Origin: Halorubrum trapanicum
Lineage (GTDB): Archaea > Halobacteriota > Halobacteria > Halobacteriales > Haloferacaceae
Direction of reading: 5' to 3'
DNA: 64,000 nucleotides
Assembly: GCF_002355655.1 (NCBI RefSeq)
Contig: NZ_AP017569.1
Coordinates: forward strand, 1,984,001-2,048,000
Below, one piece after another: positions 36,685-52,243 of the stretch. The notes under the pieces are model-generated. The model had not been told where the DNA came from. It searched no databases and worked only from the letters and a program-made list of their open reading frames with translations. Made by a program: the position numbers and the translations under genes. Numbering within the stretch: position 1 is the first letter of the stretch; each line of letters opens with the position of its first letter.

Positions 36685-36879
36685 TTACGCGTTCTGCGCG
36701 GCCTGCGACTTCTTCTGGGTGACGTAGCCGGCGATCCGGTTGCGGACGCCCTTCGACTCGACGGTCGTCAGCGCCGTGACGCTCTCCTTGTTCGTCTCGA
36801 AGTCCGTGTTGAACGAGTCGGGGTACCGCTCCAGCAGGGCGTTCCCGAGCTGTTTGATGTACTTGGGTTTGATGGCCAT
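36685..36879 (-). CDS. rps17e: 30S ribosomal protein eS17
   Basis: A 64-residue small-subunit protein: MAIKPKYIKQLGNALLERYP, then SFNTDFETNKESVTALTTVE and SKGVRNRIAGYVTQKKSQ. This is the short archaeal form. In minus orientation ccttttagttc (about 36901-36911) lies about 25-30 bases before the ATG and is the likely TATA box. Confidence 0.95.
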   Translation of the reverse strand: MAIKPKYIKQLGNALLERYPDSFNTDFETNKESVTALTTVESKGVRNRIAGYVTQKKSQAAQNA

Positions 36880-36971: not shown

Positions 36972-37637
36972 TCACGTCTCGTCCGCGCGCTCGCGCCACC
37001 CGGTCGCCTCGTCGATGCGCGCGAACGCCTCGCGCTCGGCCGGGCCGCCGCAGCGCTCGACCACGTCCGCGAAGTAGCGGAGGCGTTCGAGCAGTTCGGC
37101 GGTGTCGAACGCCGGCACGTCGAGCCGCGAGGCGGCCACCGTGGCGTCGACGACCGCGCCGAACCCGCGGTTGACGGTCGGCACGCGCTCGCTCACGACC
37201 GCGGACTCGACCGGCGACAGCTCCCACGTCCGAACCGTGGTGTCCCCCTCGGTCTCGGCCGCGACCTCTTCGGCGTCGACCTCGACCCACGCGTCGGCGC
37301 TCGGTAGCACCGGGTCGTCGACCTCTGTGACCGTCAGCGCCGCGTCGACGAACGTCCGCGGGTCGACGGTGAACTGGACGACCCCGCCGCCGCGCTCCGC
37401 GAAGTTCCGCCACGTGCGGGTGCGCCCGTAGGTGCGCGCGGTGACGGGACTTTCGGGTTCGCCGTCCGCGTCCGTCTCGGGCGCGTGGAGCCCAAGGGCC
37501 GCGACGTTCCACCGGTCGTTCGGCCCGAGCGTCGTCACCGCGGACTCAGTGACGCCGCGGAGTGCGACCGGCCAGCCGTCGGGGGCGACGCCCTCGAACT
37601 CTCTCGGCTCGTCGCTCCCGTCGCCCTCGTCGTTCAC
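36972..37637 (-). CDS. DUF447-family protein (possible flavin or pterin binding fold)
   Basis: A 221-residue protein with a GTG start. Family-like stretches are ESAVTTLGPNDRWNVAALGL, TYGRTRTWRNFAERGGGVVQ, FTVDPRTFVDAALTV and VPTVNRGFGAVVDATVAASR. DUF447 proteins have a split-barrel, FMN-binding-like fold and in methylotrophs and methanogens cluster with methanopterin and related cofactor genes. The GTG overlaps the stop of the citG-like gene by four bases (GTGA), making it the last cistron of a coupled operon with cofD, so a role in cofactor metabolism is likely by association. Confidence 0.87.
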   Translation of the reverse strand: MNDEGDGSDEPREFEGVAPDGWPVALRGVTESAVTTLGPNDRWNVAALGLHAPETDADGEPESPVTARTYGRTRTWRNFAERGGGVVQFTVDPRTFVDAALTVTEVDDPVLPSADAWVEVDAEEVAAETEGDTTVRTWELSPVESAVVSERVPTVNRGFGAVVDATVAASRLDVPAFDTAELLERLRYFADVVERCGGPAEREAFARIDEATGWRERADET

Positions 37638-38635
37638 GGCGCCACCTCCGCGCCGCGTCGGAGCGCGACGAACAGCGCCGCGCAGGTGAGGTCGGCCGTC
37701 GTGCCGGGATTGATCCCCTCGGCGACGAACTCCTCCGCCAGCGACTCCGCGGCGTCGAGATCGGCGCCGCGGACTACGTCGGCGTCGACCCCGGAAACGT
37801 CTCCCACCGGACCGCTCGGATCCCCCTCGGGCTCCAGAATCGCTCTCGCCCGCCCGCTCGCGTCGCGGGCCGTCTCCGCCCCCTGCGTCGACGCGACGAG
37901 CGTGTCGGGCTCCGCGGCGAGCAGCCCGAGGAACGCCCGCGCCGCCCGGTCGGCGAGCGGCCCCTCGTCGGTCAGGATCCACTCGGCCGCGCGGAACGTC
38001 CGCGGGAACCCCTCGACCCACTCCGCGGCGTTGCGGTCGGGGACGCGGTCCGGGTCCTCCGTGGTCTCGGGGTCGCCGGGGTCGGCCGACAGCGCCATGA
38101 CGTCGCGCAGGGTCGTCCCGCGCTCCCGGAGCGCGGGCTCGGCGTCGCTCCCGAGGCGCACGTCGAGCTCGTCGGCGCCCGGCGGCGGGTCGTCGACCGC
38201 GACGTCGACGGCCTCGAACGCGCGGTAGAAGGCGACCGCGTCCTCGACGGTCGTCGCCCGACAGACGGAGTCGACGCCGTCGGGCGAGAGCTCCCGATCC
38301 GGATCCGCGGCCGCCCGCGCCAGCGGGATCAGAAGCAGCAGGCAGCCGAACTGCGTGTTCGTCCCGGCGCGGTCGGCCATCCCTCCCACGGCGCGCTCGA
38401 ACGCGTCGCCGACGCCGGGTGGATCGCCCGCGGTCCCTCTCGTCGCCGCCAGTTCGAGGCCCGGCCGCGCGCCGACCGCGCCGCCGAGGAACGCCTCGAA
38501 CCGCAGGTCCGCGAGGTCGCGGCGCCGGTCGACGTTCCCGGGCTTCGGCGTGCCGGCGACCTCCACGAGGAGCGCGAGCGTCGCGTCGTCGACCGGATCG
38601 GCGGCCGCTCCCCGGCGTCGCTCGTTCCGGGTCAC
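37634..38635 (-). CDS. citG: triphosphoribosyl-dephospho-CoA synthase family (CitG-like)
   Basis: A 333-residue member of the CitG/MdcB family. The N-terminal nucleotide motif is VEVAGTPKPGNVDRRRD, the middle has GTNTQFGCLLLLIPLARA, and the C-terminal signature is EEFVAEGINPGTTADLTCAA. In bacteria the enzyme makes the citrate or malonate lyase prosthetic group, but there is no lyase here. The archaeal branch, next to cofD and DUF447, probably serves another cofactor. It starts with GTG overlapping the upstream stop by four bases. Confidence 0.88.
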   Translation of the reverse strand: MTRNERRRGAAADPVDDATLALLVEVAGTPKPGNVDRRRDLADLRFEAFLGGAVGARPGLELAATRGTAGDPPGVGDAFERAVGGMADRAGTNTQFGCLLLLIPLARAAADPDRELSPDGVDSVCRATTVEDAVAFYRAFEAVDVAVDDPPPGADELDVRLGSDAEPALRERGTTLRDVMALSADPGDPETTEDPDRVPDRNAAEWVEGFPRTFRAAEWILTDEGPLADRAARAFLGLLAAEPDTLVASTQGAETARDASGRARAILEPEGDPSGPVGDVSGVDADVVRGADLDAAESLAEEFVAEGINPGTTADLTCAALFVALRRGAEVAP

Positions 38636-39459
38636 GGCCGCGCCTCCGATTCGAGACCGGTCTCGTCGCCCCGGTCCCGCAGCGCTTCCGCCCGCCACTC
38701 CTCCACCGCGTCCGCGACGCGCGCGAGGACGGGCGGGTCCTCGGTCGGGCGCCCGACGCTCACCGCGTCGGCGCCGTGCGCGGCGTACTCGGCGACCGTC
38801 TCGCGGCCCCGGACGCCGTTGTTCGCGACGAGCGTCAGGTCGGCGAGATCGCCCCTGTCGCCGCTCACGACCCCCGCGTCGATCGTCGCCGCGAGGTCCG
38901 CGATCACCGCCTCCGAGTCCATCGCGTCGACGTGGAGCCAGTCCGCGCCGGCGGCCGCGACGCGCTCCGCGACGGCGACGAGGTCGACGCCGGGGACCTC
39001 CGCGCGGACCTTCACGCTCGTCGTCGCGCCCGTCTCGGCGGCCGCGGCGACGTACCGGGCGAGGCGGTCCGGCTCGCGCAGCAGCGACTCGCCGCAGCCG
39101 ACCGCGCGCAGCTCCGGCTGCCGGCAGTGGGCGTTCACCTCGCAGACTGCGCCGCGGTCGGCGCAGACTTCGGCGGCCGCTCGAATCGGCTCCGGCGTCG
39201 CGCTCCGGACGTTGACGCCGGGCCTGACGGGCGCGTCGGCGAGCGCGTCGAGCTGGTCGGCGACGAACGCGAGCGGGTCGGCCGGAAGGAACTCGGACCG
39301 GCCGCGCGCGACGAGGTCGCGGGCCGCGCCGCGGCTCGCCGGGTCGAGCGCGACGCCGCCGAGGAGCGCGACGTCGACGTGCTCGGCCGCGTCGCGGGCC
39401 CACGCGGCGTCGGCGGCGCCGCTGAGGCTCGCGGCGACGAGGAAGGGATCTCGCGTCAC
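38632..39459 (-). CDS. Dus-like TIM-barrel flavoprotein
   Basis: A 275-residue protein related to tRNA-dihydrouridine synthases: [18 protein letters not shown] opens the barrel, [20 protein letters not shown] holds the NxxCP-type active-site region in altered form (NAHCRQPE), [12 protein letters not shown] is the FMN-phosphate-contact lysine segment, and [16 protein letters not shown] and [11 protein letters not shown] complete it. The C-terminal tRNA-binding domain of true Dus enzymes is missing. With cofD and citG as coupled neighbours, it may reduce a cofactor precursor rather than tRNA. GTG start overlaps the cofD stop (GTGA). Confidence 0.82.
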
Positions 39460-40508
39460 TCCGCGCCCTCCCGCGGCGGCGCGTCCGCCGCGTCGCCGCC
39501 GGCCGCGTCGTCGGCGACCGCCGCCAGCGCACGCTCGCAGGCGCGAGCGACGCGCTCGGCGTCGTCCGCGTCGTCTATCCGGGTGTCGGTGCGTTCGACG
39601 TGCCGCTCGGGGAGTTCGGTCGGGTCGTCGTCGTCGAGGACGAACGCGTCCGCGAAGGGATACGAGTCGGTCACGCCCGCGGTCGAGGGGTCGCGGCCGA
39701 CGCCCGCCATCAGGTCCGCGGCCGGCCCGGAGAAGGCCTCGTCGCCGACGAACGGCGAGACGGCGACGACGGGCGTCTCGCGGAGCGCGCGCTCGAACCC
39801 GGGCAGCGCCAGCATCGGCCCGATGCTCGTCACGGGGTTCGAGGGGCCTATCACGACCGGCTCCGCGAGCGCGTCCAGCACCGCGTCGGTCGGCTCGGCG
39901 TCCGCCGCGCCCCGGAACTCCACGTCGGCCACCGGCGGCTCGCCGCGGCGCGCGACCCAGTACTCCTGGAAGTGGAGCGTCTCGCCGCCCTCGGTGTGGA
40001 CCAGCGTCGCCACCGGGTCGTCGGACATCGGGAGGAGGTCCACGTCGAGGTCGAACGCGTCCGCGAGGGCCCGGATCGCCTCGGTGAGCGTGTGCCCCTC
40101 GTCGAGCAGGCTCGTCCGCGTGAGGTGGACCGCGCGGTCGCGGTCGCCGATCTCCATGAACTCGCCGACCGCAGAAAATCGCCGCCAGCGGGCCATCTCG
40201 CGGCCCGCGGTCTGCGCGTGGTCGTCGAGGTACCGGGGGCCCGTTCCGAGTCCGACCTCGTCGGCGAGCCGCCGCAGCTCCTCGTGGGTCGCGGTGGTGT
40301 CGCCGTCGATCCCCCACCACGTCTCGCGGTCGAGGACGCCGCCGCCCGCGAACAGCACGGTGTCGACATCGGGGCAGACCAGGTGCCCGCCGAGCTCGAT
40401 GTCGTCGCCGGTGTTGGCGACGACCGCGGTCTCGGCCGGGTCCCATACCCGGGCCGCGCCGTCGAGGAGCTTCGGCGTGCCCGTCCCCCCGGCGAGGAAG
40501 GTTACCAT
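39456..40508 (-). CDS. cofD: 2-phospho-L-lactate transferase (F420 synthesis)
   Basis: A 350-residue CofD that joins the lactyl-phosphate-type unit to the deazaflavin Fo in coenzyme F420 synthesis. It begins [20 protein letters not shown], the family's phosphate loop, then [51 protein letters not shown] and [15 protein letters not shown]. It heads the four-gene operon cofD, dus-like, citG-like, DUF447, in which each junction is a four-base GTGA overlap. A TATA-like ggatacaaatcc (minus orientation, near 40530-40541) lies about 30 bases before the ATG. Confidence 0.95.
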
Positions 40509-40622: not shown

Positions 40623-41066
40623 GCGGTCGGCGCGTGCCTCCGAGTGGCCGCCTTTGGCGGCCGCGAGGAGCACGCGCGAGGGAGTCGGCCGACTGGAGCG
40701 AAGCGGAGGGAGGCCGACGAGGCTGGGGAGGCGTGAGGTGCGGTCGCTGTGCGGGGCGGGACTCGAAGGGGCAGCCGCGAGGCCGCCGTAGGCGACGTAA
40801 GCACCGTAGGGAGCGAGTGAAACGAGCGACTGAGGAGCGCAGCGAGCGTACGGCGGCCTCACGGCTGGGGCTTCGGCGGTGTTCGTCGGCGATCCGCCAG
40901 TAGCCATTTATAAGCTCGCGGCTGGGGATTTGGGGGAGTTCGCCGCCGATCCACTGTCAGTTATTTATAAGCGAGCGGCTGGGGCTTCGGCGGTGTTCGC
41001 CGCTGATCTGCGGCATCTCATTTATAAGCGATCGACCGGGACTTTAGACGTGGTCGCCGCCATCCC
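40623..41066 (-). repeat. composite structured repeat, copy D (reverse orientation)
   Basis: On the minus strand a partial unit (41038-41066) and three full 57-bp units (40981-41037, 40924-40980, 40867-40923), each with an atttataag box on the plus strand at 57-bp spacing (40906, 40963, 41020), lead to P1: 40849-40866 with 40773-40790, 18 positions with one G-U-type mismatch. The linker is 40759-40772 (one base differs from the other copies). P2 is gtcggcc (40684-40690) with ggccgac (40712-40718). P3 is gcgcgtgc (40630-40637) with gcacgcgc (40670-40677), with a strong inner hairpin, ggccgcc with ggcggcc. It fills the gap between icd and cofD, both also on the minus strand. Confidence 0.88.
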
Positions 41067-51822: not shown

Positions 51823-52243
51823 GTTCGAGTTTTTATAAGTAGTTGACTGAGGAGCGACGGTGAACACCGCCAAAGCCCCAGCCGCTCGGCTGTACGTGGT
51901 CGGCTGTGGATCAGCGGTGGACACCGCCAAAACCCCAGCCGCTCGTTTATAAACAGCTAACTGTGGATCGGCGGTGAACACCGCCAAAGCCCCAGCCGGG
52001 AGGCCGCCGTACGCTCGCTGCGCGCTTCACTCGGTCGCTCACTCCGTTCGCTCCCTCGTTCCAGTGCTTGCGTCGCCTACGGCGGCCTCCCGGCTGCCCC
52101 TTTGAGTCCACCCCGCTGCGACCGCACAGCACCTCACGCCTCCCCAGCCTCGTCGCTGGCGGCTTCCGCCGCCAGCGACTCCCTCGCGCGTGCGACTCGC
52201 GGCCGTCGCTTCGCTCCGGCCGCTCGCCGGCACGCGCCACCGC
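51823..52243 (+). repeat. composite structured repeat, copy E
   Basis: Three 57-bp units (51823-51879, 51880-51936, 51937-51993), the outer two with tttataa boxes and the 16-bp dyad ggcggtgaacaccgcc or a close variant; the middle unit has lost its TATA box. P1: agccgggaggccgccgta (51994-52011) pairs perfectly with 52078-52095. The linker gcccctttgagtcc is 52096-52109. P2: gtcgctggcggc (52152-52163) pairs perfectly with gccgccagcgac (52168-52179) around a ttcc loop. P3: gcgcgtgc (52186-52193) with gcacgcgc (52230-52237). It lies between the convergent ferredoxin and tmcA genes. Another tttataag (52251-52258) sits just outside P3. Confidence 0.9.

Follow-up and report, generated by a model that had tools for sequence, protein, structure and literature searches.

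A 64,000-nucleotide stretch of Halorubrum trapanicum DNA (contig NZ_AP017569.1, positions 1,984,001 to 2,048,000; hereafter the window) carries an operon of four minus-strand genes in series, which encode CofD, a Dus-like protein, a CitG-like protein and a DUF447 protein. We found that this operon joins two modules, cofD with the Dus-like gene on the F420 side and citG with DUF447, because the members of each pair stay together in haloarchaea while the Dus-like gene and citG are often split. The CitG-like and DUF447 proteins likely take part in building a methyl carrier of methanopterin type that serves Mer and methionine synthase, at variance with the published view of these organisms as folate-only. 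Methanopterin is a cofactor that carries one-carbon (C1) units and that haloarchaea are believed to be without.

Profile matches and adjacency were counted in a sample of 97 haloarchaeal genomes (designated by G numbers). A beta-RFAP synthase homologue (TIGR00144), CitG and DUF447 were each found in 94 of the 97, and the three genomes without them are always G001 and G007 of genus g15 and G018 of genus g17. An orthologue of Mer (at least 48% identity) is present in the same 94 genomes; the best Mer-like match in G018 belongs to another luciferase-like (LLM) subfamily (TIGR04024, 588 bits). G018 also has no methionine synthase (PF01717), and G001 and G007 each hold one divergent, low-scoring copy, that of G007 falling below the NF003317 cut-off and sharing 46% identity with the enzyme of the window's genome. 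The loss in G001 and G007 is clean, the gene for ribosomal protein eS17 following directly after cofD and the Dus-like gene as though citG-DUF447 had been excised. A third g15 genome, 72% complete, likewise lacks RFAP synthase, and the other sampled g17 species retain the set, their genomes matching RFAP synthase (partially in some incomplete genomes). Two independent loss events, each taking out all four genes, are the probable origin of this pattern. Under random placement, the three absences of a second gene would fall on the same genomes with a probability of 1/147,440, a figure that ignores ancestry and is unusable as a P value because shared ancestry leaves about two effective events.

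The two genes at the head of the operon behave differently. cofD was found in all 97 genomes, and the Dus-like gene is kept in all three genomes that lost the set and missing from two that keep it (G002 and G068); membership of the Dus-like gene in the haloarchaeal RFAP set is therefore unsupported. Of the 95 haloarchaeal genomes having both cofD and the Dus-like gene, 94 have them side by side; citG and DUF447 adjoin in all 94 genomes having both, at a distance of no more than 400 bp in 92 genomes and of about 530 bp between profile matches in the other two. The Dus-like gene and citG adjoin in 72 of 92 genomes, the splits lying mainly in one family (f4). The original prediction had treated the four genes as one fixed unit and proposed a co-occurrence analysis across archaea. 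This analysis found citG and DUF447 strongly co-occurring rather than scattered, and it ruled out the four genes as a single functional unit, since the pairs stand apart in about one fifth of the genomes and their patterns of loss differ. As separate observations, cofD is followed directly by citG-DUF447 in G002 (L064) and G068 (L065), both of family f3 and without the Dus-like gene, and in G018 (L061) a deoxyhypusine synthase-like gene, recognised by eye, lies between the Dus-like gene and eS17.

The genomic company of citG and DUF447 points to methanopterin. The gene order is mer-citG-DUF447-RFAP synthase in Halarchaeum acidiphilum and Halarchaeum rubridurum (L151, L157) and mer-DUF447-RFAP-metE-metE in Haloarculaceae archaeon H-GB1-1 (L110). 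In the window's own genome mer is preceded immediately by cofE (recognised by eye, without a family scan), and the same cofE/mer pairing is found in HVO_1936/HVO_1937 (PMC8305020). On the methanogen side (methanogens and other Halobacteriota), 101 genomes have both genes, and in 87 of them citG immediately precedes DUF447. Neighbourhoods were examined at 20 of these methanogen-side citG-DUF447 loci, and in six of them DUF447 adjoins DmrX, an annotated dihydromethanopterin reductase (TIGR02700); four of the five copies scanned scored 286 to 406 bits, the L192 copy scored 217 bits against a cut-off of 251, and the L179 copy was assigned by clustering. A Dus-like protein is encoded directly upstream of citG at nine of the 20 loci, with the methanogenesis marker 9 domain in all three copies scanned. 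The methanogen-side order, (cofD)-Dus/marker 9-citG-DUF447-DmrX, which is complete in L181 (G111), thus matches that of haloarchaea, with the differences that the haloarchaeal Dus-like protein is without the marker 9 domain and that eS17 stands in place of DmrX at the window locus.

Two further proteins were noticed at the methanogen-side loci. The marker 9 protein consists of a Dus-like barrel and a Cys-rich domain and is encoded directly upstream of citG-DUF447 (L173 4759–5889, L181 4574–5680, L186 4786–5997), a place that suggests a cofactor role for methanogenesis marker protein 9. A PHP-domain protein adjoins DmrX at five of the 20 loci (L181 7897–8562, L176 4408, L179 9069, L190 4645, L192 2959; called by a family scan on the L181 copy and by clustering for the others) and might be a phosphatase or phosphodiesterase acting in this pathway.

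In bacteria, the closest systems are the 'archaeal-like' tetrahydromethanopterin (H4MPT) clusters of methylotrophs, a kind of cluster treated in PMC8141765. In three plasmid stretches, from Azoarcus pAZKH, Aquabacterium pTB101 and Phyllobacterium, the genes for DUF447 and CitG are embedded in methanopterin/methylofuran clusters that also encode Mch, DUF6513, MfnB and an archaeal-type flavoprotein, and two of the three hold in addition RFAP synthase and methylene-H4MPT dehydrogenase (MtdB). Unlike the haloarchaeal operon, in which citG and DUF447 are joined to cofD and the Dus-like gene, these clusters contain methylofuran and formyltransferase genes, and no Mer or F420 gene was seen in them. 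Of the named controls, only M. jannaschii, Haloferax volcanii, Sulfolobus acidocaldarius and M. acetivorans gave matches to DUF447 and RFAP synthase, and CitG matched in these four and E. coli; S. acidocaldarius gave no match to Mch, CofD or the Dus-like protein. An alignment scan of the genome collection with DUF447 returned only haloarchaea and Archaeoglobi. The literature searched, mostly outside subscription journals, contained no link of DUF447, COG1767 or CitG to methanopterin. The original prediction saw no clear job in a haloarchaeon for the genes beside cofD, a statement at odds with the methanopterin neighbourhoods of their homologues in methanogens and methylotrophic bacteria.

The CitG-like protein (37634–38635, minus strand, 333 residues) matches PF01874 over nearly the whole profile (190 bits, positions 4–284 of 284), and its family membership and co-loss led us to propose it as a (tri)phosphoribosyl transferase in the synthesis of the carrier. 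Like the ATP:dephospho-coenzyme A (CoA) triphosphoribosyl transferases CitG and MdcB, it has the full-length PF01874 domain and the TPKPGNVD motif, which occurs in nearly all of 114 CitG-like homologues; it also carries an NPGTTAD motif. It differs from them in its genomic company and in falling under all the CoA-specific equivalog cut-offs (TIGR03132, 22.9 versus 282 bits; TIGR03125, 16.3 versus 272; NF002315, 21.2 versus 280). The DUF447 protein (36972–37637, minus strand, 221 residues) scored above the cut-offs of both DUF447_N and DUF447_C (PF04289, 75 bits; PF20766, 63 bits). Its structure model (predicted local distance difference test score, pLDDT, 94) best matched the crystal structures 2iml and 2nr4 and shares its fold with 2iml, 2nr4 (MM1853), 2ptf (MTH863) and 3b5m, with template modelling (TM) scores of up to 0.80. 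The first three of these are described as bound to flavin mononucleotide (FMN); identity is about 25%, and all four are annotated as uncharacterised or hypothetical.

The RFAP homologue of the window's genome scored 162 bits against TIGR00144, a subfamily model with a cut-off of 113.5, and most haloarchaeal homologues likewise lie above this cut-off. Nearly all haloarchaeal copies retain the pABA (para-aminobenzoate)-binding arginine R26 (MTH0830 numbering), and D19 is replaced, in most by Asn. In a methanogen RFAP synthase, the D19N change increased the KM for pABA roughly threefold, with partial activity remaining (PMC6787355). In one genome (G096:C12:147960-149032) the RFAP homologue is split across two overlapping frames, possibly by a frameshift or an assembly error. 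Mer of the window's genome passed NF002619 (467.6 bits, cut-off 276) and scored 294.7 bits against TIGR03555, whose cut-off is 348.7.

On the other side of the operon, CofD (39456–40508, minus strand, 350 residues) scored 380 bits against the TIGR01819 equivalog (cut-off 257.45), which upholds its assignment as the 2-phospho-L-lactate transferase of F420 synthesis. The Dus-like protein (38632–39459, minus strand, 275 residues) is an FMN TIM-barrel protein of MJ0144-like type. It matched the Dus family weakly (PF01207, 34.7 bits, cut-off 20.4) and reached 122.9 bits with the MJ0144 family TIGR00736, under the cut-off of 218.7, which none of the 97 haloarchaeal genomes passes. It fell far short of the equivalogs for DusA (18 versus 269 bits) and DusB (13.3 versus 293 bits), and the C-terminal methanogenesis marker 9 domain (TIGR03277), present in methanogen-side relatives, is absent from it. 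The AlphaFold model is a TIM barrel (pLDDT 92) with DusC and Thermus Dus as best PDB matches; it stops after the barrel, with low confidence beyond about residue 260, so that the lack of the C-terminal helical tRNA-binding domain, which had been read from the sequence, agrees with the model. An altered active site had also been claimed, and this did not hold up: GCP is changed to HCRQ, yet the Cys, the Lys/Arg/His and the FMN phosphate residues are invariant. Specifically, C112, K150, R152, H176 and N213/N214, as well as the E, NAHCRQ and E of an E-x-NAHCRQ-x-E motif, are invariant in an alignment of 48 Dus-like sequences. By analogy with Dus enzymes, we take C112 to be the catalytic cysteine and K150, R152, H176 and N213/N214 to be residues of the FMN site. 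Structure prediction for flavin sites, a check proposed at the outset, thus gave a Dus-type barrel for one protein and a match to FMN-bound structures for the other, and both DUF447 and the Dus-like protein are predicted flavin enzymes.

CitG transfers the triphosphoribosyl group of ATP to a ribose hydroxyl of dephospho-CoA with release of adenine. In methanopterin a ribosyl phosphate is alpha-linked to the ribitol, and this ribitol must derive from the ribose of RFAP by reductive opening. From co-occurrence, co-loss, gene neighbourhoods and folds we infer that haloarchaea produce a related carrier, and each enzymatic step below is put forward on the same grounds. Module 1, cofD and the Dus-like FMN protein, would serve the F420 side, and module 2, the CitG-like protein and DUF447, an RFAP-dependent, methanopterin-type pterin pathway. 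RFAP synthase would link decarboxylated pABA to phosphoribose, and a flavoenzyme, either DUF447 or the Dus-like protein, would open the ribofuranose reductively to deoxyribitol or perform a later reduction. The CitG-like protein probably transfers a ribosyl phosphate group and, by analogy with the action of CitG on dephospho-CoA, would use ATP to add a second ribose phosphate to the ribitol. The finished carrier would be charged with a methyl group by F420H2-dependent Mer and used by archaeal methionine synthase. Since the distribution of the Dus-like gene in haloarchaea goes with cofD and not with the RFAP set, its product might work on the F420 side instead. The suggestion that the operon makes or modifies a cofactor related to F420 or a pterin is thus partly supported, in that CitG and DUF447 share the distribution of RFAP synthase and Mer and the Dus-like gene adjoins cofD.

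The published curation takes folate as the sole carrier, with Mer and Mch shifted in specificity to use it; it holds that HVO_2628 is not an RFAP synthase and that haloarchaea lack methanopterin-specific enzymes (PMC8305020). The RFAP, CitG and DUF447 homologues might then have been recruited to modify the folate used by Mer and methionine synthase, for example by attaching a ribosyl side chain or a tail; we consider this rather unlikely. Beside the curation itself, several observations weigh against a methanopterin-type carrier. Mch was found in all 97 genomes; this rules out a tie of the CitG/DUF447/RFAP/Mer set to Mch and agrees with folate use by Mch, and part of C1 metabolism must be independent of the set because Mch persists in the three genomes without it. 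The one RFAP homologue tested against the NF040726 equivalog, that of L066, scored below its cut-off (170 versus 328 bits). Both the survival of Mch and this low score favour modified folate. In addition, the co-loss rests on only about two independent losses. A modified folate is hard to reconcile with the occurrence of all three families together in bacterial methanopterin clusters and, in methanogens, of two of them next to DmrX, with the retention of R26, and with the RFAP synthase product, which is without the carboxyl group that folate retains (PMC6787355). The distribution of Mer, RFAP synthase, CitG and DUF447 fits folate alone poorly because folate gives no reason for their joint loss.

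The remaining alternatives concern single proteins. The Dus-like protein could be a flavin reductase of F420 maturation acting on dehydro-F420-0, the CofD product from a precursor derived from phosphoenolpyruvate (PEP), like the C-terminal domain of mycobacterial FbiB; this is compatible with a methanopterin-type role of module 2. Its near-constant place beside cofD, its retention where citG-DUF447 was lost, its invariant presumed catalytic cysteine and FMN residues, the joint absence of both matches from S. acidocaldarius and the disputed use of PEP versus 2-phospholactate in archaea would fit such a function. It nevertheless appears unlikely, since G002 and G068 carry cofD without the Dus-like gene, the methanogen Dus-like/marker 9 gene stands far oftener beside citG than beside cofD, and most archaeal CofC/CofD pairs tested favour 2-phospholactate, for which no reductase is needed (PMC8764529). 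That it is an ordinary tRNA dihydrouridine synthase, in the operon by chance, is suggested by its fold, catalytic residues and best PDB matches; we think this unlikely too, given its scores far under the DusA and DusB cut-offs, the missing tRNA-binding domain and the conserved neighbourhood with cofactor genes. The membership of the CitG-like protein in PF01874 raises the possibility that it makes the 2'-(5''-triphosphoribosyl)-dephospho-CoA prosthetic group of a citrate- or malonate-processing enzyme. We regard this as very improbable and reject it on the equivalog scores and genomic company: S. acidocaldarius, methanogens and 94 of 97 haloarchaea have the protein, its gene lies beside methanopterin genes in methanogens and bacteria, and it was lost together with RFAP synthase and Mer. 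No citrate lyase or malonate decarboxylase was seen beside the operon, where alone they were looked for, no genome-wide search having been made.

Direct reading confirmed the reported four-base GTGA overlap at each of the three junctions, all on the minus strand: 39456–39459 (cofD/Dus-like), 38632–38635 (Dus-like/CitG-like) and 37634–37637 (CitG-like/DUF447). When ATGA, GTGA or TTGA overlaps (NTGA) were scored in haloarchaeal relatives, they were found at 33 of 62, 44 of 51 and 101 of 107 of these junctions, respectively. Translational coupling is therefore conserved across relatives but unequal, and strongest within citG-DUF447. Fixed stoichiometry had been deduced from the overlaps and does not follow, as NTGA overlaps are common and show coupled translation only. 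The interval first given for the operon, 37634–40508, placed the genes correctly and ended too early, as DUF447 extends to 36972. The eS17 gene (36685–36879, minus strand, identified by eye from the sequence) marks the 3' end of the operon and lies within 600 bp of DUF447 in 52 of 75 named loci. Upstream of cofD is a 57-bp tandem repeat (window 40858–41031) with a AAAGCCCCAGCCG-like core, the copies of which bear GCTTATAAAT boxes. The tandem repeat counts about 2.6 to 3.4 copies. In the same genome it also lies upstream of cofE-mer (L199 6068–6262), and its core recurs at 57-bp spacing near 51.9 kb of the window (51872–51998). This occurrence is far above chance, and the repeat is a candidate dispersed repeat or promoter-bearing element.

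Haloarchaea are on record as using folate only, and their RFAP and Mer homologues have been treated as misannotated (PMC8305020). We put at about even the chances of a broader proposal, that most haloarchaea have, alongside folate, a second, undescribed methanopterin-type C1 carrier with a decarboxylated arylamine, ribitol and ribosyl phosphate. Under this proposal, F420-dependent Mer and archaeal methionine synthase would use the carrier at the methyl level, and it would be made by way of a CitG-type ribosyl transferase and a DUF447 flavoprotein, both of which would also fill open steps of methanopterin synthesis in methanogens. Haloferax volcanii carries the set and is genetically tractable, and would be a suitable testbed. 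If true, haloarchaea would have two C1 carriers, F420 would have a clear job in these organisms in making the methyl group of methionine, and the CitG-like and DUF447 proteins would take up steps still open in the methanopterin synthesis of methanogens and methylotrophs.

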